Below are positions 6,811 through 60,067 of a stretch of DNA of 61,990 nucleotides, piece by piece. The notes under the pieces were generated by a model. The model worked only from the letters and a program-made list of their open reading frames with translations. It made no database searches and had not been told where the DNA came from. Within the stretch, counting starts at the first letter, position 1. Each line of letters starts with the position of its first letter. Source of the stretch: a virus. The translations under genes were made by a program, and so were the position numbers. Where the stretch lies: the IMG/VR virus record IMGVR_UViG_3300004461_001625, positions 1 to 61,990 of that record; one strand, given 5' to 3'.

Positions 6811-6851
6811 TTCTATATTATATATTTTATATTATATATTAAGGAGTAAGC

Positions 6852-28468: not shown

Positions 28469-28478
28469 TTTATATATT
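28469..28478 (-). promoter_or_regulatory. late promoter candidate, TATATAAA
   Basis: The minus strand reads AATATATAAA 18 nt before the ATG of the protease/scaffold gene. Confidence 0.58.
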
Positions 28479-30160: not shown

Positions 30161-30170
30161 TTTATATATT
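30161..30170 (-). promoter_or_regulatory. late promoter candidate, TATATAAA, overlapping a stop codon
   Basis: The minus strand reads AATATATAAA 18 nt before the portal ATG. Its TAA is also the stop codon of the 192-aa gene, so transcription control and the end of the upstream gene are merged. Confidence 0.58.
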
Positions 30171-33604: not shown

Positions 33605-33614
33605 TTTATATATT
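33605..33614 (-). promoter_or_regulatory. late promoter candidate, TATATAAA
   Basis: The minus strand reads AATATATAAA 19 nt before the ATG of the 632-aa gene. Confidence 0.58.
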
Positions 33615-37931: not shown

Positions 37932-39218
37932 TTATCCTGATATATCATCAGTTTCTGTTAATCTCATATGTTCATAGTCAATATTAAACCTACATCTTGA
38001 TCCCTTTCCTTGACCGTCTCTAATTTTTAAAACCTTTAACCAATATTCACGCTCAGCATGCATTACTGAATCTTGTATCAGTGCATACATTACATCGGCA
38101 GTATGCGCAAGACCTGCGGATTCTGCTATATTTTCCATTCTTACTTCTGTTGCATCCCATGCGCCACGATTAATCTGAGTAGCAGAGATAACTAGCATAT
38201 CTCTTTTAACTGCTAATGCTCTAAGATCTTCAGCTATTTGCTTAATCTTCATATAAGTATTTTCAGTATTAGGATTTCTATAATTTGCAAGAATATTAAT
38301 ATAATCTACAACTAATACATTTACTTTATGATCTGTTGATTCTTCTAAATCTTTTAAGTATGATTCAATATCTGGTATAGTTCCTTGTGAAGTTGGATAT
38401 TCTTTAACAAATAATTTACCAGGAGGTAATAAACCCCTAGATACCTTTTCCAACTTTCTTTTCATATAATCCCTATTAGTTGCATTTTTATCATAATCAC
38501 TCATTGGAACATGTAAAAGATTAGCACCTATTCTTTTTAATACCTTTTGAGCTGACATTTCTGCTGTTATAAAAACTACATTATGCCCCATCTTTACAAA
38601 ATTGGCTGCATCGTTTGCTAACCATATAGATTTACCAATGTTTTGTTCTCCTGCATAAACTATTAATGATTTAGTATCATAACCTCCACCAGATACTCGG
38701 TCTACAAAGCTCCAACCTGTTTCTATTTTCTTTGATGTTCTTTGAATATGAGATTCAGGATTAAAGAAATCTAAACCTGTATCAGTATCAAAATTAATTG
38801 ACCCATCAGTTGAGATCATTCCTATTGCGCGCTGAACTACATCCTCTACATTTTCTGGTGATACATCTTGAGTTTTTACATATTCAATTGTTCTAACTAA
38901 TTGTTTATCAAAATGTTTCCATTTAACCCACGCCTCTCCAGTTCTCTTTAACCAATCTTGATCATATTCATTAATATTAATATCAAAAACAGATTTTACA
39001 ATATCCTGAGATATCTCATTAGGGTCATCCTTAACTAAAGCTGACATCTGTTGTTTAGACGGGCTTTCGCCAAATTTTAAATAGAAATCTTTTGAGAGTT
39101 TTGCAATCTGATCTAAATCTCTATTTGCAAAAAAGCCTTTACCTGTTCCTTTCAGATAATGTGGCTTTGTTAAAAAATAGTTAAAGAAAATCTTTTCGTG
39201 ATCTATACTTGATTTCAT
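37932..39218 (-). CDS. replicative DNA helicase (gp41, DnaB-like)
   Basis: This 428-aa protein has an N-terminal helical domain and a RecA-type C-terminal core. Walker A GEQNIGKS (190-197), VVFITAEMSAQKVLKRIGANLL, Walker B VNVLVVDYINIL, and MLVISATQINRGAWDATEV (the switch and arginine-finger region). T4 gp41 is 475 aa. It unwinds the fork as a hexamer with a primase, which is not in this window. It has a replication-type promoter motif 5 nt before the ATG. Confidence 0.93.
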   Translation of the reverse strand: MKSSIDHEKIFFNYFLTKPHYLKGTGKGFFANRDLDQIAKLSKDFYLKFGESPSKQQMSALVKDDPNEISQDIVKSVFDININEYDQDWLKRTGEAWVKWKHFDKQLVRTIEYVKTQDVSPENVEDVVQRAIGMISTDGSINFDTDTGLDFFNPESHIQRTSKKIETGWSFVDRVSGGGYDTKSLIVYAGEQNIGKSIWLANDAANFVKMGHNVVFITAEMSAQKVLKRIGANLLHVPMSDYDKNATNRDYMKRKLEKVSRGLLPPGKLFVKEYPTSQGTIPDIESYLKDLEESTDHKVNVLVVDYINILANYRNPNTENTYMKIKQIAEDLRALAVKRDMLVISATQINRGAWDATEVRMENIAESAGLAHTADVMYALIQDSVMHAEREYWLKVLKIRDGQGKGSRCRFNIDYEHMRLTETDDISG

Positions 39219-39256: not shown

Positions 39257-39562
39257 TTATTGATAAGGATTATAGATTACTTCATAAGTTGTATATGCAG
39301 AATTCTGTAAAGATATTTCTAAAAACTTATGCTTTAATAATTCTTTTAAAATAATATCACATTGTTCTTTGGATAAGTTCCAGCGTTTTGCCATTGAAAC
39401 ATCTGTAAATTTTATGTCTTTAGAAACTTTCCCACAGTAGTCTCTAATTAATTCAAAAAGTATATCTTCAGCATCAGGGTAATGTGGCAATGTTGTGTGG
39501 TTTCCTAATACATACTTTACTTTAAGCTTTGTAGTATTAAGAGTTTTCGGTAACATCATCAA
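39257..39562 (-). CDS. small winged-helix-like protein
   Basis: A 101-aa protein with a predicted helix-turn-helix core: SMAKRWNLSKEQCDIILKELL, followed by KHKFLEISLQ as a wing. The N terminus is short and basic, with three Met codons in tandem at the start. It overlaps the uvsX 3' end by 26 nt and lies just upstream of gp41. I do not recognise the family. It could be a regulator or a helicase-loading accessory (the T4 gp59 gene is near uvsX in some relatives), but that is speculation. Confidence 0.66.
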   Translation of the reverse strand: MMMLPKTLNTTKLKVKYVLGNHTTLPHYPDAEDILFELIRDYCGKVSKDIKFTDVSMAKRWNLSKEQCDIILKELLKHKFLEISLQNSAYTTYEVIYNPYQ

Positions 39563-40742
39563 CTGTTTCTGTAATTATATTACCTAATTCTTCCTGGTCT
39601 AATTCATCACCGTATGTAAACTTTTCAGCAACAATAGGTTCTAGTAATTTTAATACATCATCAGTTAATACTTGTGGTGAATATAATTGATTAAGATCTA
39701 CTGTATCATTTAAATGTTTTACACAGAGCTTACGAGCAGTTGGAGAAGGTTGAAAATAAACAATTACATCCTTTTTATCTTTTTTAAATGAATGCTTTCT
39801 ACAGTCAGCCTTTCCTGGATCAGTTAATTTATTAAATGCACCGTCAGTTATAAACCTTCCTCTTTCAATGCCACAGATATCCCAGCCTATGTATTCTTCT
39901 AAACCTACATAAGGATTCATACCTTTATTAAAAGAAATATGGAATTTAATATTTGTTGGTTTTGCAAATCTGTTTTTATTTGGTTTAGCAGTTACAATAA
40001 TTCCAGTCTGTTCTATACCTTCTTTAAGTTTAGCTTTACCTAAAAATAAAATAATTGAGGCTGCATATTCTGGACCAGTACCGCCGCCGCCAACTTGTCT
40101 TGAAAATAAATCTTGAGTTTGGTATGTATGATTAGTAAATAAGAATGGAATTTTACAAATACCAAATTGTGTCATAATAATTCTAAAAGTAGATTTTAAA
40201 AGTTTAGCTCTTGTCATATCAGCTTTACTACTTCCAGTCTTTGCATCATCAATTTCTTTTTGCGTTGCAAGGTTACCAGCAGAATCTAAAACTACCATTA
40301 TTTTAGGCAATTCAATTCCTTTTTTCTTTTGCTCAATTAGTACATCAGTAATTGCAGTTACTGAACTTCTAAATTCTTGAACAGTATTACACGGTTCATA
40401 TCTAAATGTTTTTGGATCAATACCAAATTTTTCAACTAATTTTTTATCTACTGCATTTTCGGAATCATAAAAAATTATACTATACCCTTGTTTTTGTGCT
40501 TGTTTAATTGCATTTAAAATAAGATAAGTTTTACCAGTCCCAGATGGTCCTGCTAATGCAACTGCTCTGTTGTTAGGATAACCTCCAAATAGAGATCCTG
40601 TTAAGCATGCATTAAGATGATAATTTCCTGTTGGTATATAATGATCAATTTCTGAAATTGTTGATTTGTCTAAAGTATTTCCGTACTCGGATATCTTTGA
40701 CATTTCTTTGTTTAAATCTGCGAATGAGAATTCCTTTGCCAT
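39537..40742 (-). CDS. uvsX: recombinase UvsX (RecA-like)
   Basis: This 401-aa RecA/UvsX protein has Walker A GPSGTGKT (65-72), FYDSENAVD, Walker B KIMVVLDSAGNLAT, the strand IPFLFTNHTYQ and VGGGGTGPEYAASIILFLG (L2 region). T4 UvsX is 391 aa. It coats single-stranded DNA and drives strand invasion for recombination-dependent replication. The start is preceded by an AT element (ATCAATATAATAATAAA at 40753-40769). A winged-helix gene overlaps its end. Confidence 0.94.
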   Translation of the reverse strand: MAKEFSFADLNKEMSKISEYGNTLDKSTISEIDHYIPTGNYHLNACLTGSLFGGYPNNRAVALAGPSGTGKTYLILNAIKQAQKQGYSIIFYDSENAVDKKLVEKFGIDPKTFRYEPCNTVQEFRSSVTAITDVLIEQKKKGIELPKIMVVLDSAGNLATQKEIDDAKTGSSKADMTRAKLLKSTFRIIMTQFGICKIPFLFTNHTYQTQDLFSRQVGGGGTGPEYAASIILFLGKAKLKEGIEQTGIIVTAKPNKNRFAKPTNIKFHISFNKGMNPYVGLEEYIGWDICGIERGRFITDGAFNKLTDPGKADCRKHSFKKDKKDVIVYFQPSPTARKLCVKHLNDTVDLNQLYSPQVLTDDVLKLLEPIVAEKFTYGDELDQEELGNIITETVDDVTENS

Positions 40743-40789: not shown

Positions 40790-41914
40790 TTAAAATAGGC
40801 TTGTAGTGTAAATCAAATTTCTATTAAATGCTTTAAATCCCATTGCAGTTACTACTCGATTAATAGGATCTAGTATTGTTTTTTCAAATTGTCTATCATG
40901 ATCCATTTCTGGTGCAAATTCATAAGGATATTCACCAGGTGCAAATGCAAACACATCACATGCTTTATCTTTAGAGAAATACATTTTACATTTTTCACCA
41001 TTGCCTAGCGGCTGATACTTACCTTTAGATGTAGAATTATTTAATAAATAATTATGGTAACCTGCAGATCTTACTCCAATGGGACACCTTGATGCAAATT
41101 CAAAAGCTTCATAATCATTTGTAATGTATTTTTGATAATTATTTACTTTTCTAGAAAAACAAATTTGATCTACATTTGCCAATTTAAATTGTCTTTTTAT
41201 ATCTTTAAGTAATGCGGCAAATGCTTTCATATCTAACTTATCAACAGAGAATATGTATGTTAATAAATCTTTTAGTTTTTCTCTAGCAAATATTGGAGTA
41301 GACGATTGAATAATTTCAAAACCTTTTGAACTAATTTTAGACAAATCTTCATAATGAATATCTGGATCTTTCCATACAATATTTTGCATGTACTTTTTCT
41401 TAGCTAACCATATTGCATTTTTGGCAATGCTTTCTAATTCAAAAGATAAAAAGTTTTCTGCATTATTATCATCAGCATATTTTTGAAGAATTTTTTCTAA
41501 ATAACCATTTACTCTAACCTTATATAATTTTAAAATAAATTCCTTTTCATCACCTTTCCAACCTTCTGATTTTTCTATTACTTCATCAAACTTTACATAT
41601 ACTGAATCTGTATCAATATAAATACCTACAGGATTTTCTATTCTTCCAGTTACTGTTATTCCCATTTCTTTATGAGCAGCAATGTCTTTATGCCAATATT
41701 TACTAAAGTACATGTTAAGTAATTCTTCAGTATATAAAATTGCATCTTTACCTTGTAATGTTATAGTCTCTGCTATATCAACATTAAAGAAATAAAAGTA
41801 AGGATTACCAAATGCACCATAAATAGAGTTAAGCATTAACTTAACTGCTTGCTCATAATTATAAAACTTACTTGCTTCTTTATTGATTTGCTGTAATTCT
41901 GTAAGCTCTGTCAT
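40790..41914 (-). CDS. DNA polymerase family B, C-terminal half (gp43 part B)
   Basis: A 374-aa protein that begins inside a polymerase. It contains motif B, AVKLMLNSIYGAFGNPYF (K25, N29, Y32, G33), and motif C, GIYIDTDSVYV (D101, D103), followed by the thumb region (KKKYMQNIVW, KGFEIIQSSTP, ending MGFKAFNRNLIYT). It lacks the exonuclease domain and motif A. These are encoded by the 471-aa gene at 58652-60067. The two together total 845 aa, close to T4 gp43 (898 aa). ATG at 41914 fits a natural protein start (MTELTELQQINKEASKFY). Confidence 0.93.
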   Translation of the reverse strand: MTELTELQQINKEASKFYNYEQAVKLMLNSIYGAFGNPYFYFFNVDIAETITLQGKDAILYTEELLNMYFSKYWHKDIAAHKEMGITVTGRIENPVGIYIDTDSVYVKFDEVIEKSEGWKGDEKEFILKLYKVRVNGYLEKILQKYADDNNAENFLSFELESIAKNAIWLAKKKYMQNIVWKDPDIHYEDLSKISSKGFEIIQSSTPIFAREKLKDLLTYIFSVDKLDMKAFAALLKDIKRQFKLANVDQICFSRKVNNYQKYITNDYEAFEFASRCPIGVRSAGYHNYLLNNSTSKGKYQPLGNGEKCKMYFSKDKACDVFAFAPGEYPYEFAPEMDHDRQFEKTILDPINRVVTAMGFKAFNRNLIYTTSLF

Positions 41915-42254: not shown

Positions 42255-43004
42255 TTAATCCTCGTCAGTAATCGCCACAGCGACAGTTAAGTGAGTGTTG
42301 GTATCTAAAGATCTAAATACAACTTTATTATTACAAACTACCACTTTATAGTTTTCTTTATCTAAAAGGTTAATATATTTTTTGTAAATTACAACCTTTT
42401 GTCCTACTGCATTTTCACCTTCATATGAATGAGCTAAAGTAGCATCATAAGAAAGACCTTGTACTGCAATACCTTTATCAGTTACTGCTAATGTAAATGT
42501 ATCTTCTTCTCTTTCTAAATTAAATAAAGATTTCATTTTATCCACATGAGTTGTTAAAAGATCAAACTGAAATATATTACCGTCAGTTCCAAATGCACGA
42601 TCAGTTTCTTCTTTACTCATTTCCATAAATGATAATGATGGATCAGCACATGCTAAATTAATTTGAAGATCAGCATTCTCTAAAGTAAAATCACTTGCCA
42701 TTAATTCTCCATCAATTTCTGAGTACTTAATTTTACCTTGTACATCTCCATTAAAATGAGATAGTGCATCGATTACTTTGGTACCATTATAAAAACTAAC
42801 CTTTACTGGATTAGTAATGTCAGTGTCAAAGATATCAGATGTTGGTGTTGATACTAATTTCACTGCATCCCTTTCTGGGAAGTATACAGATGAAACGGTT
42901 CCTTCCTTTCCAATTTTCATAAAAATGAATTTATCAATTGGTAAAAGTTTTTTGACGAATGTACTTAATTCGTAACCGTCAATTTTTTTAATAGTTGCTT
43001 CCAT
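42255..43004 (-). CDS. sliding clamp (gp45-like)
   Basis: A 249-aa acidic beta-rich protein. The first strand and helix (EATIKKIDGYELSTFVKKLLP, IDKFIFMKIGKEGTVSSVYF) and a second similar repeat (DLLTTHVDKMKSLFNLERE, TFTLAVTDKGIAVQ) give the two-domain clamp layout. T4 gp45 is 228 aa. It forms a ring that holds the polymerase and serves as a co-activator for gp55-driven late transcription. A terminator follows it, and a variant replication motif (GCATATAACAATAAA, 43020-43034) lies 15 nt upstream. Confidence 0.88.
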   Translation of the reverse strand: MEATIKKIDGYELSTFVKKLLPIDKFIFMKIGKEGTVSSVYFPERDAVKLVSTPTSDIFDTDITNPVKVSFYNGTKVIDALSHFNGDVQGKIKYSEIDGELMASDFTLENADLQINLACADPSLSFMEMSKEETDRAFGTDGNIFQFDLLTTHVDKMKSLFNLEREEDTFTLAVTDKGIAVQGLSYDATLAHSYEGENAVGQKVVIYKKYINLLDKENYKVVVCNNKVVFRSLDTNTHLTVAVAITDED

Positions 43005-45336: not shown

Positions 45337-45340
45337 ATAT

Positions 45341-46585
45341 TTAGTTTGTTATTTTGTTATAAGCTTCCCATATTTTATTATCTACGTGTTCTCCAGTATA
45401 ATAAGAATCTTTTAAATACTTTTCTTGGAGATTATAAAAGAGTTTTTTATAATGCTCTGGGTTTGCATTTAAAAAATCTACTTTCTTTTTTAAATCTTCT
45501 GGAGATTTACATCTAATGAAATGACCGTCAGGGAAGACATTAAATTCAGTATCGTAAGATGGATGTAAGAATGGTATAATACCATAGTGTAGCATTTCAG
45601 CATACTTAGAGGTTACCATTCCTTCTTTAATAGGTACACAGAAAGTATACTTAGTAGAAAGTAATTCATCTGTCATTGATTCAATTCTTTTTTCTCCTTT
45701 AAACCAATTTGGATATTTTTCTTTTAATTCATCATCCCACTTACCATAAATATCTGTCTTTATATCATTCTCTACAATATAATCTTTAACTGGATCCCAT
45801 CGGTCCATTCCTCCCGTACCTTTTCCTTGATTTTGTAACATCATAAATGAATTTGTCTTTTTCATTTCAAACAATTCATCAGTGTTATACCTAGTCTTAT
45901 CTAAAAGAAAGACAGTTTCAATACCTGAATATTCATAAGTAGAAGTAATTGTTTTAACATCTCTTAGTGGTGGTTGATAAAAATACTGCTCTTCTTTTGT
46001 AAAATTATTTTGAGCTAAGTAATATGTAGGTCTATTATTAATACCCCAATCTTTACAGGCTAATACATATCGATTATCTACAAGTAAACCAACAATTGGT
46101 ACTTTCTTTTCCAATTCATTCATTGCTTGAATTATTGGTGCTGCATAATATTTAAAAAAGTCTAATGATTTAACTTGACCATTCCCATCCTTCTTATTAA
46201 TATAATTAGGAATATTAACTGTACTTGATGGTCCAGTGTAAAAGAAAATAAAATCTAAATCTAATTCTTTTATAAATTTTACAGTTTCATCAGCAGATTT
46301 TCTATTCTCCATTTTAGAATGAAATTCATGAATGTTTGATTCTGCCGCTGACTCTGCTTTAACAGGATCTCCAAATAATGATTGAACTGCCGGCTTTTCT
46401 TTTGCTCTAACTCTGCCTAAATCATTAGGGCTTAATAACCAATATTCAATATTAGGATTTCTTTTTGCTATTGCATTTATTAATTGCTTAGGTTCACAAT
46501 CTCCACCGATTGCGCCCCAACTGTTTTCATTAAACTTAATCGCTTTACCAAGTTTAAAGAAACCTACTTTTTTAACATTTTCCAT
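45341..46585 (-). CDS. GT-B glycosyltransferase, possibly T4 AGT-like
   Basis: A 414-aa protein with GT-B layout. N-terminal domain: VGFFKLGKAIKF, IAKRNPNIEYWLLSPND and DFIFFYTGPSS. A middle stretch QYFYQPPLRDVKTITSTYEY resembles a segment of T4 alpha-glucosyltransferase as I remember it. C-terminal domain: YTFCVPIKEGMVTSKYAEMLHYGIIPFLH, with the E-x(n)-G donor loop. It lies in an operon with a DNA methyltransferase and sugar-activation genes, so it may glycosylate modified DNA bases, but the acceptor could also be a glycan or protein. The AGT link is a memory-based impression, not an alignment. Confidence 0.62.
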   Translation of the reverse strand: MENVKKVGFFKLGKAIKFNENSWGAIGGDCEPKQLINAIAKRNPNIEYWLLSPNDLGRVRAKEKPAVQSLFGDPVKAESAAESNIHEFHSKMENRKSADETVKFIKELDLDFIFFYTGPSSTVNIPNYINKKDGNGQVKSLDFFKYYAAPIIQAMNELEKKVPIVGLLVDNRYVLACKDWGINNRPTYYLAQNNFTKEEQYFYQPPLRDVKTITSTYEYSGIETVFLLDKTRYNTDELFEMKKTNSFMMLQNQGKGTGGMDRWDPVKDYIVENDIKTDIYGKWDDELKEKYPNWFKGEKRIESMTDELLSTKYTFCVPIKEGMVTSKYAEMLHYGIIPFLHPSYDTEFNVFPDGHFIRCKSPEDLKKKVDFLNANPEHYKKLFYNLQEKYLKDSYYTGEHVDNKIWEAYNKITN

Positions 46586-47290
46586 TTAACACGTTTTAAT
46601 TAAATCTTCTATTACTTCTTTATCATTTTCATACGTTAGATCATACCAACATATATTTAATTCCTCAAACTTTAAATTATCCATTGAATTAATAAGATGG
46701 GTAATTTCATATTCATTTCTATTTGACATTTTAATACTATCAAGATTATCAAATGCTTCTTTTGAAAATATCATATAACCACAGAAATATCTTCCTGAAA
46801 CAATTCCATGTGGTTTTTCTATAACAACATTTTCTAATATGGAAGCTAATTGTAAATTCCTAGCTCTTGTATCATAATCTTTGTAAGTAACTACTGTACT
46901 GTTTGGATCATGATATTCTAATCCTATATTTCCTTGATAATAATTATCTCCAAATAAACACAAGAAGCCTTCATTAAATTTACCAGCCCAAACCTTTATT
47001 GCTGCACCTGGACCATATTCATCATCCTTTTGAAATTCATAAAATATGTTAATGTCTTTTTTATACTTATTAAGTTTTTCTATAATAGGATGAGAAAGTT
47101 TTATACTATCTTTAAAAAAGAAATCGGCTTTACTAATTGTTACATAACAATCTTCTATTCCATTCTCAATACAAAATTCAATACAATATTCAACTGTTGA
47201 TTTGCCTAAGATAGGATCAACTAATTTATTTTTGCCATATCTTGTAGAACGGCCTGCTGCTAATATAATTGCTTTACTTACTCTTTTCAT
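46586..47290 (-). CDS. sugar-1-phosphate nucleotidyltransferase
   Basis: A 234-aa NTP-transferase fold. The NTP-binding loop is IILAAGRSTRYGKNKLV (residues 8-24), followed by FLCLFGDNYYQ (metal-binding Asp) and a glycine-rich GRYFCGYMIF later. The length fits short nucleotidyltransferases of capsule and LPS pathways. It attaches NMP to a sugar phosphate to give the nucleotide-sugar donor. Its stop lies next to the ATG of the GT-B gene, and its ATG overlaps the kinase stop by 4 nt, so the genes form one operon. Confidence 0.86.
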   Translation of the reverse strand: MKRVSKAIILAAGRSTRYGKNKLVDPILGKSTVEYCIEFCIENGIEDCYVTISKADFFFKDSIKLSHPIIEKLNKYKKDINIFYEFQKDDEYGPGAAIKVWAGKFNEGFLCLFGDNYYQGNIGLEYHDPNSTVVTYKDYDTRARNLQLASILENVVIEKPHGIVSGRYFCGYMIFSKEAFDNLDSIKMSNRNEYEITHLINSMDNLKFEELNICWYDLTYENDKEVIEDLIKTC

Positions 47291-48033
47291 TTAGTATACT
47301 TTATTTCTAATTCATCAAATAATTCATGTCCTTTTTTAAGGAAAGATCCTGCTAATTCATACCTTTCATTTAATTCAAAGAAAGGTACTGCTCCTAATAA
47401 ATGAACAGCTAAAAAGAACTTAAGTTGATATTCATCACACCATTCATACATTATCTTTTCAGCTTCTTTACAGAACTTACTGTATTTTTTATTTGGATTA
47501 TTGTATATATGGGACTCATATTCCATGACAAATGATTGCATCAGTTTTCCATAATCATAATAGTCCTGTTCTTCGGTACCTCTTGGGTCTATAAAAAGAA
47601 AATCTTTATCATGTAAAATGTTACTTACGGTTAAATCTCCATGTACAAAACCCCAACAAGATACTGCATCAAATTTACCTTCATAAGTATAACCTGTTCT
47701 TAATTGAAGTTTATTAAAATAATCTTGAGTCTTTACATCAGATCCTATATTATCAAACTTGCCTATAATTGAAATAAGATTTTCTAATTGATTTAATGAG
47801 TTAGTAATAGGTTGAGTTAAAATTTTATCATACCAAGTTGAAAACCTTTTCATTTCATAACTTGTTTCTGATAGAGGCTTAACATTAATAAAATTAGGAT
47901 GATCACAGCACATAAGAAATTCCATTTGCTGTTTGAATTTTTCTGGATAATGCCCAGCCTCTTTAATTACTTTGTTACCTTGGAGAAATACTTTATCTCC
48001 ACTATTCCCTACTAAAATTTTACTATTATGCAT
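47287..48033 (-). CDS. APH-like small-molecule kinase
   Basis: A 248-aa protein with the aminoglycoside-phosphotransferase-type kinase core: GFVHGDLTVSNIL (H-G-D-x(4)-N catalytic loop), DFLFIDPRG (metal Asp) and QDYYDYGKLMQSF. This set often accompanies sugar nucleotidyltransferases in capsule loci, where it phosphorylates a sugar or related metabolite. It overlaps the HAD gene by 22 nt and the nucleotidyltransferase by 4 nt. The substrate is unknown; antibiotic resistance is not implied. Confidence 0.83.
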   Translation of the reverse strand: MHNSKILVGNSGDKVFLQGNKVIKEAGHYPEKFKQQMEFLMCCDHPNFINVKPLSETSYEMKRFSTWYDKILTQPITNSLNQLENLISIIGKFDNIGSDVKTQDYFNKLQLRTGYTYEGKFDAVSCWGFVHGDLTVSNILHDKDFLFIDPRGTEEQDYYDYGKLMQSFVMEYESHIYNNPNKKYSKFCKEAEKIMYEWCDEYQLKFFLAVHLLGAVPFFELNERYELAGSFLKKGHELFDELEIKYTK

Positions 48034-48563
48034 TTTATTCCTAGTTTACGTGCAAAGGTTGAATCTACGTCAGAATCACCAACCATTAAAAAGTCTTCTT
48101 TGTTATATTGTGGAAATTTTTCTATTATTAGATTTCCCATATCTATAGACGGTTTTTTATTTGATACATCTTCTCTTGTATATATGTAATCAAATAACTT
48201 AGGATCTATTTGATGATAACTCATGATTCTATCTACATTTTCTCTAGAAGAATTAGATGCTATAACTAAATTTTTAAATACTTTACTCTTACACATATAT
48301 AAAAGTAATTCATTTACTTTAGTTTTATGTAAGTTTTTTGAAAATATTTCCTTTTTATATTTTTGTGCTAACTTAGATTCTTTATTAGTTAATTGATATT
48401 TTTCTAATAAAACATCCATACCATAATTAATATCTGCCATGATAGCGGATAACGGTATTTCTATGTTTAAGACCTTTTCTAATGCCTTTCTCCAGGAATC
48501 AGCATGAATCTCAATAGTTTTAACTAGTGTATCATCAAAATCTAACATTAAACATTTTTCCAT
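48012..48563 (-). CDS. HAD-superfamily phosphatase
   Basis: A 183-aa HAD hydrolase with motif I DFDDTLVKT (nucleophile Asp), motif II VIASNSS, motif III SNKKPSID (Lys) and motif IV VGDSDVDSTFA. The cap is small. It dephosphorylates a small metabolite, most plausibly a sugar phosphate, in the nucleotide-sugar pathway encoded downstream. It is the first gene of its operon; a promoter-type motif (CATATAATAATAAAT) lies just before the ATG and a strong terminator lies upstream. Confidence 0.85.
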   Translation of the reverse strand: MEKCLMLDFDDTLVKTIEIHADSWRKALEKVLNIEIPLSAIMADINYGMDVLLEKYQLTNKESKLAQKYKKEIFSKNLHKTKVNELLLYMCKSKVFKNLVIASNSSRENVDRIMSYHQIDPKLFDYIYTREDVSNKKPSIDMGNLIIEKFPQYNKEDFLMVGDSDVDSTFARKLGIKCIIVKF

Positions 48564-48595: not shown

Positions 48596-48634
48596 TAACA
48601 AATGTTTTAAGAGTGCTAGAGATATTTTTAAGAC

Positions 48635-48667
48635 AAAAAAAGACCGCCTAGATGGCAGCCTCTTTTT
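48635..48667 (-). terminator. strong bidirectional terminator after histone-like gene
   Basis: On the minus strand AAAAAGAGGCTGCC pairs with GGCGGTCTTTTTTT around ATCTA with several G-U pairs, and T runs lie on both sides. It separates the surface-sugar operon from the methyltransferase operon. Confidence 0.88.
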
Positions 48668-48685
48668 AGGTGAACGGTATTTGTA

Positions 48686-48862
48686 TTAAAGACTGTTCTT
48701 AGTATCTTGTACGTGTATTCTTACTTCTTGTGCTAGATTTTTAATATCTTGCATTGTTTTACGAATTCTAACAGCAGCAGCTTTATTTCCTTTTACATAA
48801 AACTTATCTACATCTTCATTACACGCTTCGATTAACGCTTTAATTTCTTCAAATTTTTCCAT
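48686..48862 (-). CDS. histone H1-like (Hc1 family) DNA-binding protein
   Basis: ATG at 48862 opens a 58-codon frame. The protein (MEKFEEIKALIEACNEDV, then KFYVKGNKAAAVRIRKTM, then NLAQEVRIHVQDTKNS) matches the Bacteroidota histone H1/Hc1 family, in which the segments KFYxKGNxAA and RxRKxMQxxKNLAQxIRxxVQ recur. Family members are small helical proteins thought to compact DNA. A phage copy could condense or protect viral or host DNA. It lies between the GT2-like gene and the strong terminator, closing the surface-sugar operon. It is a useful marker that the host is Bacteroidota. Confidence 0.87.
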   Translation of the reverse strand: MEKFEEIKALIEACNEDVDKFYVKGNKAAAVRIRKTMQDIKNLAQEVRIHVQDTKNSL

Positions 48863-48910
48863 AATTAATTGTTTTTGTTGTTATTGTTTATTTAATCTAT
48901 ATATTCATCA

Positions 48911-49819
48911 CTAGAACTTACCTTCACGGTTTCTGTAAAAACTTGTTACTTTAGGAATGTACATATAATTTTTTCCTTTGTCCTTGACGTTCATCATGAC
49001 TCTTTTAAACATGTCCCAATCAGCAGGTAATATACCACCTGAATTAGATGGTGCACCCTTTAGCTTAGGAGCAGTGTTTTTCTGTTGATCTGGATTTCTA
49101 TATCTTAATTTACCTATTATGCTAGGTCTCCAAGACACAGCAGAATGCGAAGTATCATTTGCTCCGTATCCTTTATTATTTAAATCCATATCATATTCTT
49201 TTTGCGGTTGCATAAATACTTTCTTTGCAGTATTATGAGCAGTTACTTTCTTTTTACTTCTAGTAAACACAAAACCTAAATCAGGAAATTGTGAGTACGC
49301 TTTAGCAATAGTCTCTAAGTGATTAGGAGCCCATTTATCATCATGATCTAATCGTATGATATAATCACAACCGTCTTTGTCTGCCATATTTAAGGAATCA
49401 TTTAATGCACCACAGCCTGCAGTAAATCTAATTTGTTTAGTTGTCCACTTTTTATTATTTCTTTCACCTGGTGTTGATCTATTCTTATATTGAATTTGAT
49501 CAGCAGGTATAATATCTTCTATTACTTTTTTAATTTCATTCTCATCACCTTCATATTTATCAGCAGTCAAATAAATTTTCCAGTTTTTATATTTTTGATT
49601 CTTAATAGAATTTAAAGCATCTGCTAAAACGCCAGGAGTTGTCATATGCTTTGCCCTCTGTTTGTTTGCAGCACCAGCATTCATATCATGAGTAGCCATC
49701 ACTATTCCAAACTTAATATCATTATCTATTTTTGATCCAAGATTTTTTTCTAAAAGAATTTGAAAATTTTCTTGGCCTATATAAGACTCTAATAAGTTAT
49801 ATTCTTCAAAAGTTATCAT
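48911..49819 (-). CDS. GT2-family glycosyltransferase with N-terminal extension
   Basis: A GT-A domain begins near residue 36: DIKFGIVMATHDMN, SIKNQKYKNWKIYLTADK, then YIIRLDHDDKWAPNHLETI, with the DHDD metal and donor site, and FVFTRSKK. The first 35 residues (TFEEYNLLESYIGQENF) are an added helix with an LxE-type site. Such leaders mark T4-like proteins packaged in heads. The transferase is 302 aa. It lies next to the bacillosamine-type pathway genes, with its start overlapping the aminotransferase stop by 4 nt. The acceptor is unknown. Confidence 0.78.
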   Translation of the reverse strand: MITFEEYNLLESYIGQENFQILLEKNLGSKIDNDIKFGIVMATHDMNAGAANKQRAKHMTTPGVLADALNSIKNQKYKNWKIYLTADKYEGDENEIKKVIEDIIPADQIQYKNRSTPGERNNKKWTTKQIRFTAGCGALNDSLNMADKDGCDYIIRLDHDDKWAPNHLETIAKAYSQFPDLGFVFTRSKKKVTAHNTAKKVFMQPQKEYDMDLNNKGYGANDTSHSAVSWRPSIIGKLRYRNPDQQKNTAPKLKGAPSNSGGILPADWDMFKRVMMNVKDKGKNYMYIPKVTSFYRNREGKF

Positions 49820-50931
49820 TTATTAAAAAATGTTTTTATAGACTTTATAATTCTTTTCATATCTTTGTTTGTAAGATCTGAACCTGAAGGTAAACAAATA
49901 CCTTGTAAGAATAATAAAGAACTGTTTCCATTTATATATTTTTTATATCCTTGCATAACTGGTTGTTCATGCATTGGTTTCCAAATTCTTCTTGCTTCTA
50001 TATTATCATTAGCTAAATGGTCAATTAAATCTTCTGGTTTATCTTCACCTTTCATAAGAGCACAGCTTAACCACATATTAGATCTATCAGTTTCTCTCTC
50101 TTCTTGAAAAGAATAAAATAAATTACCTACTTCTTTTCTATAAATTTGATTAATTTCTCTTGTTCTTTTTATTCTATCTTCTATAGACTCCATTTGGCCT
50201 ACACCAATTGCAGCAAGAACATTACTCATTCTATAATTATAACCTATTTCAGTATGATGATAAAATGGTTTTTTATCTTTAGCTTGCGTAGATAAAAATC
50301 TCATATAATCTGCAAGTTTATCATCATTGGTTACAATAACCCCACCACCTGAGGTAGATAATAACTTATTTCCATTAAAAGAATAAACACCAATAGGACC
50401 AAAGGTTCCTGTGTGCTTATTATTAAAAGTAGATCCCAAACTTTCAGCGGCATCTTCAATAATAGGTATGTCATATTCATCTGATAATTTTTTAATTGCA
50501 TCCATATTACATGGTACTCCAAAAATATGGACGGGTATAATAGCTTTTGGTTTTTTACCTAAAGCTGTTGAATTAAGAATTGCTTTTTCTAATAGTATAG
50601 GATCCATATTCCATGTACCTTCTTCTGAATCAATAAAAATAGGTTCAGCACCACAGTAAATTATAGGATTAACGGTTGCTACGAAAGTTAATGAAGAACA
50701 TAAAACATAATCACCTTCTTCAACCCTTAATGCTCTTAATGCTAAATGAATACCTGCAGTTGCTGAAGTAACAGCTACTGCGTATTTAGAATTAGTATAT
50801 TCTTTAACAGTATCTTCAAACATATTAAGATGTGGCCCAATTGGAGCTATCCAATTATCTTTAAACACATCATTAATATATTCTAACTCTTTGCCTGACA
50901 TATGAGGCGGTGAAAGATAAATTTTTTTCAT
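49816..50931 (-). CDS. PglE-like sugar aminotransferase (DegT/DnrJ/EryC1)
   Basis: A 371-aa PLP-dependent aminotransferase: SATAGIHLALRALRV, IIPVHIFGVPCNM, PIIEDAAESLGS (Asp for the PLP ring), and SFNGNKLLSTSGGGVIV, with the catalytic lysine K189. The pattern FNGNKxxxTSGGG is like PglE, which aminates the 4-keto group of UDP-4-keto-6-deoxy-GlcNAc. Its ATG overlaps the acyltransferase stop by 4 nt, and the matching 4,6-dehydratase is 2.4 kb upstream, so it fits the middle step of diacetylbacillosamine synthesis. Confidence 0.88.
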   Translation of the reverse strand: MKKIYLSPPHMSGKELEYINDVFKDNWIAPIGPHLNMFEDTVKEYTNSKYAVAVTSATAGIHLALRALRVEEGDYVLCSSLTFVATVNPIIYCGAEPIFIDSEEGTWNMDPILLEKAILNSTALGKKPKAIIPVHIFGVPCNMDAIKKLSDEYDIPIIEDAAESLGSTFNNKHTGTFGPIGVYSFNGNKLLSTSGGGVIVTNDDKLADYMRFLSTQAKDKKPFYHHTEIGYNYRMSNVLAAIGVGQMESIEDRIKRTREINQIYRKEVGNLFYSFQEERETDRSNMWLSCALMKGEDKPEDLIDHLANDNIEARRIWKPMHEQPVMQGYKKYINGNSSLLFLQGICLPSGSDLTNKDMKRIIKSIKTFFNK

Positions 50932-51509
50932 AATTTTATTTTAACAGGATTTCCATAAGCAGTAATTCCATCAGGTAAATTTTTTGTAACAACTGAGCCT
51001 GCACCAATCATACAATTTTTACCAATTTTAATATAAGGTAATATCACAGCACCTGCTCCAATAAATGTACCTTCTCCAATTTCTACACCACCACACAATG
51101 TTGCATTAGGTCCTATAAAACTAAAGTCTCCTAATATACAATCATGATCTATTGATGCCGCCGTATTTATTATACAATGCTTTCCTATTTTAGTACCAAC
51201 TTGTATTGTAGAATTATGCAATATCTGAGAACCCTTCCCAGGATTAATATTTCTATCCAAAACAGCCGAGTCATGAATTACTGTAATATAACAATCATTT
51301 CCTAATAATTCTGCTATTCTTTTTCTTGAACTATTATTACCAATAGCAATTAACCAATCACCTTCTATATTATTATTATAAGGATCAAAATCCCCAACTT
51401 CTTTTTCATAACTTTCATCATCCCAAAATTTTATTTGTTTAGGGTGTGTATTATACAAAACAGAACTTATTACTTTTGCATGCCCGCCTTTTCCGTAAAT
51501 ATTAATCAT
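50928..51509 (-). CDS. PglD/NeuD-like sugar O/N-acetyltransferase
   Basis: A 193-aa left-handed beta-helix acetyltransferase. N-terminal Rossmann part: INIYGKGGHAKVISSVLY (UDP-sugar site) and IAIGNNSSRKRI. The hexapeptide repeat region includes HNSTIQVGTKIGKHCIINTAASIDHD, GPNATLCGGVEIGEGTFIGAGAVI and VVTKNLPDG. The catalytic His is probably in the SIDHDC segment. It would acetylate the 4-amino-sugar made by the PglE-like enzyme. It lies between that enzyme and the bifunctional glycosyltransferase in the same operon. Confidence 0.88.
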   Translation of the reverse strand: MINIYGKGGHAKVISSVLYNTHPKQIKFWDDESYEKEVGDFDPYNNNIEGDWLIAIGNNSSRKRIAELLGNDCYITVIHDSAVLDRNINPGKGSQILHNSTIQVGTKIGKHCIINTAASIDHDCILGDFSFIGPNATLCGGVEIGEGTFIGAGAVILPYIKIGKNCMIGAGSVVTKNLPDGITAYGNPVKIKL

Positions 51510-54406: not shown

Positions 54407-55149
54407 ATATTATTTATTTGAGACACTAACCAATCCAATTCTACTTGACTAGCAGAATCAGAAATAGCATTCTCAGGATCAGGGTGTGTTTCAATAAATA
54501 CGCCATCATATTCAAAAATCTTTGCTGCTTGAGCATATTGTTTAGCTAATTTACGACTACCTCCAGTTATACCTTCTCCAGCCATTTGGGTTGAATGAGT
54601 ACAATCTAAAATAACTTTGTCTGCAAATTCTTTCATTACATCTACACCTCTAAAATCTACAATTAATCTATCATAACCAAAATTAGATCCTCTTTCAGTT
54701 ACCCACACTTCACAATTAGGATCAACTTCCTTTATCTTTGCAACTGCATGTTTCATTGATTCAGCAGATAGCCATTGACCTTTTTTAATATTAATTATAT
54801 TAAAGTTTTTTGCACATGCAATTAAAAGATCTGTTTGTCTGCATAAGAATGCTGGTATTTGAATAACATCAACAACTTCAGACAGTGGTAATGCTTGGTT
54901 AGGATTATGAATATCAGTTACAATTTTAATGTTAGGATAATGGTGTTTGACTGTTCTCATAATTTCCATCCCTTCATCTAAACCTGGACCTCTATCTGAA
55001 TGTATTGAAGTTCTATTAGCTTTATCAAAAGAACCTTTGAGATACCATTCCTTGGTTCCCATGTAGCCATCTAAAGTTTTTGCTACTTCTAAAAAGTTGT
55101 CCTCGTTTTCAATACTGCAAGGACCAAGTATATATGTATAGTTTTTCAT
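54403..55149 (-). CDS. kdsA: KDO-8-phosphate synthase (KdsA-like)
   Basis: A 248-aa aldolase of the DAHP/KDO8P synthase family. ILGPCSIEN (start), GSFDKANRTSIHSDRGPGLDEG, VVDVIQIPAFLCRQTDLL, INIKKGQWLSAE, TERGSNFGYDRLIVDFRG and FIETHPDPENAISD are all KdsA signatures. Bacterial KdsA is about 280 aa, so it is slightly short. It condenses arabinose-5-phosphate with PEP to KDO-8-phosphate, the precursor of the LPS sugar KDO. A phage copy suggests altered host LPS or a KDO-like sugar on the virion. It overlaps the nrdA start by one nucleotide. Confidence 0.93.
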   Translation of the reverse strand: MKNYTYILGPCSIENEDNFLEVAKTLDGYMGTKEWYLKGSFDKANRTSIHSDRGPGLDEGMEIMRTVKHHYPNIKIVTDIHNPNQALPLSEVVDVIQIPAFLCRQTDLLIACAKNFNIINIKKGQWLSAESMKHAVAKIKEVDPNCEVWVTERGSNFGYDRLIVDFRGVDVMKEFADKVILDCTHSTQMAGEGITGGSRKLAKQYAQAAKIFEYDGVFIETHPDPENAISDSASQVELDWLVSQINNI

Positions 55150-56924
55150 TACCCATCACAGCTTAAACATTCTTCCATTGCTGATTTAGCAATATCTCCT
55201 CTTAATACAGATTCAGTTCTCATATAATAAAGAGTTTTAATTCCTTGCTTCCATGCTTCAAGATGAACTTGATTAATCCATTTAGGAGTAGCTTCTTTTG
55301 GAAAAGCAAGATTTAAAGAAACTGCCTGATCTACATATTGTTGTCTTATACCACCTTGTCTTATTAAATCTAATTGATTAATTTCTTTAAATGTTTTAAA
55401 TACATCTTTAAAAGGAACGCCTTCTTGAAATTCTGGTACATCTTTACATTTAATTAACATACCTTTTAAGAAACACCAATCATCTAAAAATTTAAGACCT
55501 TGTACAGAACCACCATCTGCCATGATCTTATCCCATACTTTTTTATTATTATGTCCCATTTTTTCTAAGTAACCTAATAATTGTTGATTCTTTCTAATAA
55601 AAGTCCCTTTGGCCGATTGATCTGTCCATATATTAGCAGGTACTGGTTCTATACCAGCAGAAATTCCACCAGCTAATTTTGAATTAGACACTGTTGGAGC
55701 AACTGCTCTTAGGTGAGTATTTCTAAAGCCAGTATCTCTACACCATAAAGGTTCTCCGTACGCCTCGGCAAGATCTCGGCTTGCCCTTTCACTTTCTACT
55801 TTTATTTGAGAAAATATATTACGAGTTTCATACTGTGCTTCTAAACCTTCAAACGCAATACCTCTTTGTTGCAAATAAGTATGCCATCCTAATACACCTA
55901 AACCTACTGCTCTACCTTTTTCTGCTGTTCTTACGGAGTTTTCAAAACCTTTTCTATATTTAGCCTTTTGAATAAATTCTTCAAGTACACCGTCTAAAAA
56001 CCATGTTGCATCATAAATAAGATTAGTATTTTTCCATTCATCATATTTAGAAAGATTAAGAGAACTTAAACAACAAACAAAAGAATGATTTTCATCTGTA
56101 TGTAAAACAATTTCAGAACAAATGTTAGTCATAAATACTTTTAAACCATTTCTCTTGTATGCCTCAGGATTTTGTTTATTAACATTTCCTCTATACATTA
56201 TATAAGGTTGCCCAGTCTGTCTTCTTTTTCTTTGGACTGCTGCATACCTTTTTCTAGATTCTGCATCTCCTTCTAAAACATTTCTCATAAACTTATCACC
56301 TATGACAACACATTGGTTTGTATTTAAACACTGTCTATTAATATCACCTTTAGGTTCTCTAATTTCTAACCATTCCCAAAAATCTCCATGTTCTATACTT
56401 AAATTAGTACTTGCTGCTCCTCTTCTAACCGCTCCTTGATTAGTGGCAAGAATTGTAGAATCATTAATTTTAATAAAGGGTACTACACCATCGCTTGTTC
56501 CATTATCAGTTATATTAGATCCGGCTGGTCTGATTTGATTATGACCTACTCCTACACCACCACCATGTTTTGCTAATAACATAAGTTCTAAATTCTTTTG
56601 GCCTATATCATTAATGCTATCCGCTACATCTATACCAAAACAACTAATAGGTAAACCTCTTTCAGATCCAGTGTTGCTTAATACTGGTGATGCTAAATTT
56701 AACCACCCTTTCCAAATGTACTTCATAAACTTATCTGCCATTTCTGGTTTCTTAAGCCTATTAGCTACAGTTGTTGCTACTCTCCAGTATGCATCCTTTG
56801 GGGTTTCTCCTGGTAAACAATATCCTCTTGATATTGTATTTAAGTAAACATCGGTATGCCCCCAGTCAGGATAATCAACGCCTCTTTCCCATCCTAATTC
56901 TTTTTCTATTTGATCTGCTGTCAT
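55149..56924 (-). CDS. nrdA: ribonucleotide reductase, class I large subunit (NrdA-like)
   Basis: A 591-aa class I RNR large chain. It has no ATP-cone domain at the N terminus. Motifs: LNLASPVLSNTG, LPISCFGIDV (first redox Cys), HGGGVGVGHNQIRPAG, VFMTNICSEIVL (radical Cys and Glu pair), FVCCLSSLNL (second redox Cys), and C-terminal AMEECLSCDG with CxxC-type exit cysteines. It reduces ribonucleoside diphosphates with NrdB at 57557. A 200-aa acyltransferase gene separates nrdA and nrdB. Lack of an ATP cone implies no dATP shut-off by that domain. Confidence 0.94.
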   Translation of the reverse strand: MTADQIEKELGWERGVDYPDWGHTDVYLNTISRGYCLPGETPKDAYWRVATTVANRLKKPEMADKFMKYIWKGWLNLASPVLSNTGSERGLPISCFGIDVADSINDIGQKNLELMLLAKHGGGVGVGHNQIRPAGSNITDNGTSDGVVPFIKINDSTILATNQGAVRRGAASTNLSIEHGDFWEWLEIREPKGDINRQCLNTNQCVVIGDKFMRNVLEGDAESRKRYAAVQRKRRQTGQPYIMYRGNVNKQNPEAYKRNGLKVFMTNICSEIVLHTDENHSFVCCLSSLNLSKYDEWKNTNLIYDATWFLDGVLEEFIQKAKYRKGFENSVRTAEKGRAVGLGVLGWHTYLQQRGIAFEGLEAQYETRNIFSQIKVESERASRDLAEAYGEPLWCRDTGFRNTHLRAVAPTVSNSKLAGGISAGIEPVPANIWTDQSAKGTFIRKNQQLLGYLEKMGHNNKKVWDKIMADGGSVQGLKFLDDWCFLKGMLIKCKDVPEFQEGVPFKDVFKTFKEINQLDLIRQGGIRQQYVDQAVSLNLAFPKEATPKWINQVHLEAWKQGIKTLYYMRTESVLRGDIAKSAMEECLSCDG

Positions 56925-57556: not shown

Positions 57557-58552
57557 TTACCAAATGTCATCCCAATCATCACCTTCACCTGCTTTAGCAT
57601 AATCAGTTGGTCTGATTGCAAAAAAGTCAGTATGGGTATGGCCGCCTGTTAAATGATAAAACCAGTCTAAAGCATCAGCTGATTTTTCATCATATTCAAA
57701 TATCGGATCTAATCCTAATTCTTGTAATTTTTCATTTGTTCTTCTATAAATAAAATTCTTTAAGTCGTAAGCCTTTAAATTTTCAATATCACCCATTTCA
57801 AAAATCTTATCAATATAATCATGCTCCATATCTACCATTAACTTTGCAGCTTCATAAATAGATTCTTTAACATCGTCCCTTAATGTTTCATCCTCAGAAC
57901 ACATATGATTAAATAACCTACATCCCATTTTAGAATGCAACGATTCATCTCTTACGGACCATTTCATCTGTTGGCCAATTCCTTTTAAAAGATTTCTCAT
58001 TTGAAAACTATATAAAACTGCGAATGAACTATATAAAGATACACCTTCAGCAAATGCAGAAAATATTGCAAGACTTCTAGCAACTTCCTTTCTTGCATCT
58101 TTATTTTTTAATAAATCTTTATCAGTATAATCAGCCTTTGTTGACATTAAGAAGTCAAATTTATCAGCCATTGAAGGTTCATGTAAAAATGCAGTATAAT
58201 CTTCAAGACCTAATGTTTCATTTAAATAACTATAAGCAACTGCATGAATTGTTTCTTGTGAACCAAACATCATTGCCATTTGTCTTATCTCATGTTTAGG
58301 AAACCATTTTGTAACCATTCCTGTCCAATAATCAGATACTGCACATTCAGTTTGAGCAAACCCTAAAAGAATATTGCCTACTAAGTTTTTTTCATGAGGT
58401 TTTATATTTTCATTCCAATCCTTTAAATCACCTTGCATTGATATTTCAGTATGTAACCAAAATGCTTGTGCTTGTGGTAGCCAACCATCCAAATAATATT
58501 CAGGGTATTCAAAAGGTTTATATTCGACTCGATTAGTGAAAAGTTTGCTCAT
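57557..58552 (-). CDS. nrdB: ribonucleotide reductase small subunit (NrdB-like)
   Basis: A 331-aa ferritin-like RNR chain. Metal ligands are readable: E69 (QTECAVSDYW), E100 and H103 (SQETIHAVAYSYL), E169 (AFAEGVSLYSSF), E203 and H206 (RDESLHSKMG). The radical tyrosine is probably Y107 in HAVAY. The C terminus ends DDWDDIW, the tail that binds the large subunit. It makes the tyrosyl radical needed by NrdA. A palindromic hairpin lies between polymerase part A and this gene. Confidence 0.93.
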   Translation of the reverse strand: MSKLFTNRVEYKPFEYPEYYLDGWLPQAQAFWLHTEISMQGDLKDWNENIKPHEKNLVGNILLGFAQTECAVSDYWTGMVTKWFPKHEIRQMAMMFGSQETIHAVAYSYLNETLGLEDYTAFLHEPSMADKFDFLMSTKADYTDKDLLKNKDARKEVARSLAIFSAFAEGVSLYSSFAVLYSFQMRNLLKGIGQQMKWSVRDESLHSKMGCRLFNHMCSEDETLRDDVKESIYEAAKLMVDMEHDYIDKIFEMGDIENLKAYDLKNFIYRRTNEKLQELGLDPIFEYDEKSADALDWFYHLTGGHTHTDFFAIRPTDYAKAGEGDDWDDIW

Positions 58553-58651: not shown

Positions 58652-60067
58652 TTAATCATTGTCTTGTTTTTTTAACTCTTGTTCCAAATCATATGCTTTT
58701 TGTTGAAGTCTAAATGATTCTTTCTTATAAGTCTTTCTTTGATCATACAACCTACTTAATACGTCTTTAAGTATTGATCTCTCTGTACTATATACCGCAC
58801 CTGTAACTGAAACAATCCTATCATCACCTACTTCCTTATCTCTAATTTCTGGTTTTACTTTTCTAATAAAACTTTCTGGAGATACATTTAATTGTCTCAT
58901 AATAGAAGGATATAGTGAAGCAAAATCAAACGCAGCTACAGCATTATGCATTCCTGTTTTAGGTTCTTTTACAAAGGCTCCTTCAAATTGTTGTCTTTTA
59001 GTTGGAGGTGCTTTAGGATCTTTTGCCATTACTAAATCTCTGGTTAAAAATTCTCTGGCTAATAATGCTTCAGTAATTGCTACAGGTGATGCTGCTTTAA
59101 ATATACTAATCTGAGTCATATGAGCAATAGTTAAAGCAATTTCCATTGTTTTAATTTTTTCATGAATTAAATAAACTAATGCAGTATCAACAGCATTATA
59201 AAAAATGTATTTAGGATAATCCTTTTCATACATATCCTGTATTGTTCCGTCATATTTAATTTTACGAATACCTACAACAGCTTCACCTACTGTATCTAAT
59301 TTAAAATCTTCTTTAATATCAACAGTCCTATCCCATTTTGCATAAATATCTAAATAATCCATTACGCCTACATGGCATGGAAATTCATGTTTACCAAACG
59401 TTCTACCTATAGGAGAAGCTATAGAAGGATCAATTCCTAATTTCTTACAACGATTTACAATATACTGCCAGTCAAATTGAACATAATTCCAACCTGTCAT
59501 CATAGAAAACTTTTTAACAAAAGAATCCATAAAAGTATAAAGCATATCATACTCATTTTTAAAACATTTAAAGATAAATGAAAATTCTTCGCCTATACTT
59601 TTAAAGTGTTCATCTATTTGTTTTTGAATTTTAGATTGTGTTTGTCTATCTAAATCTTTTGTAGCTAAAACTATACATTGCTTTTCTGGAGTAACAATAC
59701 AAATTGCAGTTACTGGATTAGGTGCCTTGCTTGGTTCTGGAAATGAATCAGTTACCTCTACTTCAATATCTACAAAAAAAGTTTTTGGAAAATGATAACC
59801 GAATATGAGCTCTCTATCAGAAAAAGATAGCTGATCCATATATTCAATAATTCTATACTTATTTAAATATCTTGATCTTGCTTTCTTTACAGAACGACCA
59901 TCCCAGTTTTTAATTTTCTTATCTGCTTTAGGATCGCCGCCTTCACAAACCTCCCAGTTAAACATATCCTCTGGTTGAAGATCATAAGTTTTAAATCTAG
60001 TTTTTCCGTCAAGATTAAAATAAGAAACCCATAATTGGCGATCTTCTTGAGTTATATCTAATAGCAT
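58652..60067 (-). CDS. DNA polymerase family B, N-terminal half (gp43 part A)
   Basis: A 471-aa protein with the 3'-5' exonuclease domain: FVDIEVEVTD (D100, E102), GWNYVQFDW (N194, D199), YNAVDTALV (D294), plus polymerase motif A, AFDFASLYPSIM (D381). It then enters the fingers helices and ends ...YKKESFRLQQKAYDLEQELKKQDND. Motifs B and C are missing; they are in the 374-aa gene at 40790. The T4 gp43 has all in one chain. Both parts are intact ORFs, so the split looks functional rather than a broken gene. Confidence 0.94.
   Translation of the reverse strand: MLLDITQEDRQLWVSYFNLDGKTRFKTYDLQPEDMFNWEVCEGGDPKADKKIKNWDGRSVKKARSRYLNKYRIIEYMDQLSFSDRELIFGYHFPKTFFVDIEVEVTDSFPEPSKAPNPVTAICIVTPEKQCIVLATKDLDRQTQSKIQKQIDEHFKSIGEEFSFIFKCFKNEYDMLYTFMDSFVKKFSMMTGWNYVQFDWQYIVNRCKKLGIDPSIASPIGRTFGKHEFPCHVGVMDYLDIYAKWDRTVDIKEDFKLDTVGEAVVGIRKIKYDGTIQDMYEKDYPKYIFYNAVDTALVYLIHEKIKTMEIALTIAHMTQISIFKAASPVAITEALLAREFLTRDLVMAKDPKAPPTKRQQFEGAFVKEPKTGMHNAVAAFDFASLYPSIMRQLNVSPESFIRKVKPEIRDKEVGDDRIVSVTGAVYSTERSILKDVLSRLYDQRKTYKKESFRLQQKAYDLEQELKKQDND

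Follow-up and report, generated by a model that had tools for sequence, protein, structure and literature searches.

A tail-less Hc1-family protein encoded in the replication block of a T4-like phage, with a virion-type promoter-like motif before its gene

The Hc1 protein of Chlamydia (HctA) condenses DNA; its lysine-rich C-terminus binds DNA and its conserved N-terminus dimerises (PMC2848022). In phages, the corresponding Pfam family PF07432 is already known from jumbo moraphages, large aquatic phages with predicted Bacteroidota hosts, where Perez-Hernandez et al. 2025 report it in four complete genomes and speculate on genome compaction during packaging (PMC12619734). The parts of that paper available to us argue from eukaryotic H1, medusavirus and Chlamydia, and do not treat the missing tail, the promoter context, other phage lineages or non-Bacteroidota hosts (PMC12619734). 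Only five annotated phage records carry Hc1, namely three huge metagenomic phages and two entries of Synechococcus phage S-SRM01, an isolated cyanophage of the Kyanoviridae whose ‘histone H1’ PQC13_gp281 scores 53.8 bits against PF07432. Bacteroidota carry chromosomal Hc1 proteins, mostly of 57–60 aa and tail-less; in the literature searched, we found nothing on the function of these proteins, and no DNA-binding measurement for any tail-less Hc1 member.

The stretch analysed here (the window) is a 61,990-base linear virus contig from IMG/VR. It derives from a T4-like phage, with genes for terminase, portal, prohead protease, major capsid protein, tail sheath and UvsX. The nearest matches to its terminase and capsid proteins come from the huge metagenomic phage LR756500 (49.5% and 51.8%, respectively); the terminase also matches Sphingomonas phage PAU, Tenacibaculum phage PTm1 and the Lak phages, among others, and Lak phages come next for the capsid. 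Like the moraphages, it encodes a PF07432 protein:

48686..48862 (including the stop codon), minus strand: hc1, 58 aa, Pfam PF07432 Hc1 core; ATG at 48862, stop codon ending at 48686

The original prediction had placed a 58-residue histone H1-like gene here without naming its strand. The gene is confirmed, on the minus strand; the plus-strand frame across the same interval is interrupted by stops. In a profile search, its product matches PF07432 with 80.7 bits (E 7e-23; gathering cut-off 23.5 bits), residues 1–57 covering positions 1–57 of the 57-position profile, and the hairpin-turn motif of the family, KFY..GN.AAG.R.RK, is present as KFYVKGNKAAAVRIRK. Residues F21, A29, R32, R34, Q38 and R48 are invariant across 57 aligned rows. 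Judged by profile and motif, assignment to the Hc1 family is certain, as had been predicted. A PHROG search with the protein returned no family at E ≤ 0.01. Likeness to the chlamydial protein is weak and confined to its N-terminal region: the NCBIfam equivalog HctA aligns over profile positions 7–38 of 121 with 17.9 bits (15 bits in the genome search), 82 bits short of its cut-off of 100 bits. Among 25 distinct nucleotide sequences of the window’s lineage, median dN/dS is 0.08, and 0.12 for pairs with dS < 1. From its relatives and this signature of purifying selection, hc1 is not a chance open reading frame. Its median protein identity to the window copy (81%) exceeds that of the upstream glycosyltransferase (56%) and the downstream HAD hydrolase (68%), and some other neighbours reach 84–90%.

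The gene is widespread among viruses. A single-sequence scan found 37 viral loci with 45–100% identity, a viral profile scan gave at least 550 candidates, and two further scans added more. All 226 viral loci that we examined contain the hc1 frame; they fall into at least six types of phage neighbourhood and encode 159 distinct Hc1 sequences as called. Bacterial copies are also common, as the original prediction held for Bacteroidota: 68 of 118 Bacteroidota genomes encode the family, and the best 80 genome matches are all Bacteroidota or their MAGs. These proteins are about 49–63% identical to the window protein and share with the phage copies the motif KFY.KGN.AAGTRVRK.MQ.LK.LAQ.IR.EVQ..KN; an Ala/Pro/Lys extension occurs in one (L116) of 80 bacterial relatives. 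Phage copies nevertheless sit mostly on branches of their own, apart from the bacterial ones, and about three switches between phage and bacterial labels suffice to explain the 57-column tree, which does not discriminate between origins.

The proposal that hc1 serves as a host marker does not hold as a rule. Bacteroidota make little use of Shine-Dalgarno sites, and such sites precede 3% of genes in the window’s lineage versus ~40% in the large phage lineages IV and VI. Because these two lineages are rich in Shine-Dalgarno-like sites and S-SRM01 carries PF07432, hc1 alone is no mark of Bacteroidota. The S-SRM01 gene differs from that of the window in host phylum and neighbours and sits on a very long branch. 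In that phage (L312, 177661–189810), hc1 lies ~3 kb from a Dps-type DNA-protection gene. For the window itself, a Bacteroidota-type host is favoured.

An AlphaFold2 monomer model of the protein consists of helices 2–22 and 29–57 (mean pLDDT 96.7), predicting a single two-helix hairpin that probably assembles into a dimer or small helical bundle. Foldseek found no match to this model in the PDB or BFVD at E ≤ 0.001; the weaker matches are helical hairpins of a generic kind (small terminase, designed bundles, uL29), and the likeness of the model to them is one of shared topology only. We found no solved structure for any Hc1 family member, and 1jfm, matched by profile at E 0.00045 over the second half only, was set aside as chance. 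The best viral (BFVD) match to the model is a 131-aa protein of Klosneuvirus KNV1, A0A1V0SJN2 (TM 0.93, 31% identity, E 0.005), a possible Hc1-like domain in a eukaryotic virus.

The window protein ends three residues past the conserved K55, so that the lysine-rich C-terminal tail of the chlamydial protein is missing, and its net charge is +1. With their starts trimmed, the first 97 viral copies span 57–69 aa and charges of −5 to +5; longer viral frames stem from upstream alternative starts, and no lysine-rich C-terminal tail occurs among the viral copies listed, these longer frames included. As called, 66 of 226 viral copies are neutral or acidic. Charge is unevenly spread across the viral rows, with an acidic helix 1 (mean −2.6) and a basic remainder (+4.3), and basic residues at positions 20, 32, 34, 35, 41, 48 and 55 are conserved at 90% or more. 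Conserved K/R/Q residues (32, 34, 35, 38, 41, 45, 48, 52 and 55) cluster on one face of helix 2, with p = 0.006 against other polar positions at a period of 3.5 residues and p = 0.064 at 3.6. This stripe fits contact with a polyanion, and a polar helix interface as well.

On the map, hc1 lies inside the replication block and not among the head genes. The features of this region are:

37932..39218, minus strand: DnaB-like helicase
39537..40742, minus strand: UvsX-like recombinase
40790..41914, minus strand: DNA polymerase B, C-terminal part
42255..43004, minus strand: sliding clamp, PCNA/gp45-like fold; the next gene after hc1 in lineage III and LR756500
48012..48563, minus strand: HAD-superfamily hydrolase, downstream neighbour of hc1
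48911..49819, minus strand: glycosyltransferase family 2 (GT2), upstream neighbour of hc1, member of a glycan block
55149..56924, minus strand: ribonucleotide reductase (RNR) large subunit; the gene immediately before hc1 in lineage III
57557..58552, minus strand: ribonucleotide reductase small subunit
58652..60067, minus strand: DNA polymerase B, N-terminal part (split gene)

The frame at 42255–43004 has no Pfam match. Its AlphaFold2 model (pLDDT 87.8) finds PCNA as the best Foldseek match (E 1.7e-10), and all of the 50 PDB matches listed are sliding clamps or complexes with one, which identifies it, by predicted fold, as a sliding clamp. In a lineage III locus (L134), the gene order is polymerase B N-terminal part, RNR small subunit, RNR large subunit, hc1, clamp, polymerase B C-terminal part, UvsX, a small frame and DnaB. 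All these genes have homologues in the window, arranged alike except that glycan genes are inserted to either side of hc1, and the 462-kb phage LR756500 keeps the order with interruptions, hc1 adjoining the clamp. The two inserted blocks (43052–48563 and 48911–55149) carry glycan and nucleotide-sugar genes (DegT aminotransferase, GT2, epimerases, polysaccharide synthesis protein), accompanied by a C5-cytosine methyltransferase, and occupy what is a compact replication block in lineage III. The two polymerase B frames of the window lie ~17 kb apart, the gene of L134 being split likewise, and a further polymerase-exonuclease-like frame is found at 783–1586. Lineage IV, which has a family A polymerase, carries hc1 after a gp32-type single-stranded DNA-binding protein (SSB) gene and before RecA, exonuclease and DnaB; overall, an SSB gene directly adjoins hc1 in 58 of 226 loci. 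In lineage VI, RNR, NT5C, NifU and IscA lie close to hc1, which rules out a head-module context there.

Upstream of hc1 lies a promoter-like motif, AATATATA, which also precedes virion genes of the window, and a terminator-type hairpin follows the gene:

48898..48905, minus strand: AATATATA before hc1, 43 nt from its start
33607..33614, minus strand: AATATATA before the 632-aa open reading frame 31687–33585, 29 nt from its start; position kept in three relatives
30163..30170, minus strand: AATATATA before the portal gene, 28 nt from its start; position kept in three relatives
28471..28478, minus strand: AATATATA before the prohead protease gene, 28 nt from its start; position kept in three relatives
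48634..48668, minus strand: terminator-type hairpin and T run after hc1 (−18.9 kcal/mol, z −5.1)

Across the window’s lineage, AATATATA stands 29–43 nt upstream of hc1 in 29 of 30 loci, a spacing like that before the portal, prohead protease and other virion genes. It is absent before other genes of these loci (0/28, 0/30 and so on), with the exception of the GT2 gene (4/26). Within the window, 7 of 28 genes in the structural half have the motif within 50 nt of their start, whereas in the other half, apart from hc1, none of 28 genes does (Fisher p = 0.01), and 8 sites near gene starts were observed versus 1.4 expected from shuffles. Three relatives carry it at matching sites before hc1 and before the orthologues of the portal, protease, 31687–33585 and 12829–13437 genes. 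An order-1 Markov test and shuffles gave no overall excess of AATATATA, so that the evidence is positional, and no exact copy precedes the major capsid gene. Of the apparent early matches in the relatives, one, at the RNR large-subunit gene of G119, is a script artefact, and another stands 7 nt from its gene start. We consider AATATATA probably the virion-gene promoter of this lineage, and probably active late. Other minus-strand sites lie at 6833, 7467, 13456 and 24630, and the motif could serve to predict the expression class of other genes in the lineage.

Relatives have a hairpin at the matching place after hc1, in 30 of 30 cases below −12 kcal/mol; the sequences vary, and some are not plain terminators. 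The consensus terminator scan did not list the 48634..48668 hairpin, and the sigma-70 and terminator scans yielded nothing useful. By its flanking elements, hc1 is thus a putative transcription unit of its own in the window’s lineage, and this arrangement, with the virion-type AATATATA, is what is new here. In lineage III, TAnnTTTG, which we take to be the Bacteroidota −7 element, precedes hc1 in 5 of 12 loci versus 2 of 106 other genes, and most loci have a terminator-type hairpin at hc1. The gene therefore appears to tend towards its own transcription unit, with a promoter type that varies by lineage, and because lineage III has this host-type element instead, timing may differ between lineages. 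In those lineage IV loci (L140–L228) that were inspected for it, a C-rich/G-rich element, CCCCCCCACAGGGAGGC...GGTTATCAGGTGTCTCA, occupies the interval between the SSB gene and hc1 with almost no variation, possibly a terminator or RNA element.

For the window’s lineage, the gene’s own AATATATA and hairpin suggest late expression, as judged from map position and the shared motif, and point to a role on replicated phage DNA. The promoter type would also be compatible with a protein carried inside the phage head, like the internal virion proteins of T4. A putative DNA-handling role late in infection is likely. The specific reading that we put forward, which falls somewhat short of probable, is that the hc1 product, small and probably dimeric, binds nucleic acids weakly, is made together with the virion genes and organises replicated DNA for packaging. 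Transcribed as its own unit from a virion-type promoter and ended by its own terminator, hc1 would probably yield abundant protein late in infection. Through the conserved R/K/Q face of helix 2, the protein would make weak, sequence-independent contacts with the phosphate backbone. As a small protein of the nucleoid-associated type, it would organise or protect phage DNA fresh from replication, both ahead of packaging and while packaging proceeds. We infer late timing, dimerisation, DNA binding and the packaging role alike. This reading is weakened because the part of the chlamydial protein that binds DNA is the tail that hc1 lacks, because the charge is +1 and so many viral copies are neutral or acidic, because the gene maps in the replication block and the fold is generic, and because AATATATA shows no general excess and lacks an exact copy before the capsid gene. 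The prediction that the protein could compact viral DNA was, as worded, extrapolated from Chlamydia Hc1, whereas the phage protein is the near-neutral core only.

Map position favours a different, rather unlikely reading, in which the protein is a replisome or recombination accessory. It would work together with the sliding clamp, SSB and UvsX, at the replication fork or in its wake, for instance coating or bridging nascent DNA, and packaging would not be its chief role. The colinear block of L134, its order retained with interruptions in the window and LR756500, the sliding-clamp-fold gene after hc1, the SSB neighbour in the unrelated lineage IV, where RecA, exonuclease and DnaB follow, and the direct adjacency of SSB in 58 of the 226 loci all speak for it. 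However, replication and nucleotide genes are not enriched beside hc1 (17% of adjacent genes versus 16–25% elsewhere in 12 kb), loci inside one lineage are not independent, and in the window’s lineage hc1 has a virion-type promoter motif and a terminator that are not common to the replication genes.

The missing tail, near-neutral charge, generic hairpin fold and a match confined to the N-terminal region of HctA (15–18 bits) would equally suit a small dimerisation or adaptor module that binds no nucleic acid, ‘histone H1-like’ then being a historical accident derived from the chlamydial Hc1 tail. We regard this as doubtful, since most of the near-invariant residues are basic or Gln, and these lie on one helix face, as expected of polyanion contact, with the caveat that this face could also be a polar interface between helices. 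Finally, the original prediction raised silencing of host genes. In such a takeover, as we picture it, the phage copy would pair with host Hc1 or coat the host nucleoid and stop host transcription. Mixed phage–host dimers are possible because the likely hosts encode the same core, at about 49–63% identity to the window protein. Yet such takeover proteins are normally early, AATATATA is common to virion and not replication genes, which makes silencing less likely in the window’s lineage, and most phage copies keep to their own tree branches; we consider this explanation highly improbable.

The phage and Bacteroidota proteins correspond to a domain of chlamydial Hc1 other than its known DNA binder, since the tail is absent. 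Their ‘histone H1-like’ labels lean on the chlamydial protein, of which the DNA-binding part is absent from them; as a function, ‘histone’ is putative. To our knowledge, accounts of phage DNA packaging do not usually involve dedicated chromatin proteins. A broad and doubtful proposal is that the tail-less core is a general late phage chromatin protein, used by unrelated tailed-phage lineages in different bacterial phyla, and represents the ancestral nucleic-acid-binding unit of the family; if true, it would owe its retention in phages to a role in condensing or ordering replicated DNA for packaging. Strongly selected in hundreds of phages and apparently co-expressed with virion genes, hc1 would qualify as a candidate for a chromatin or packaging factor of phages.
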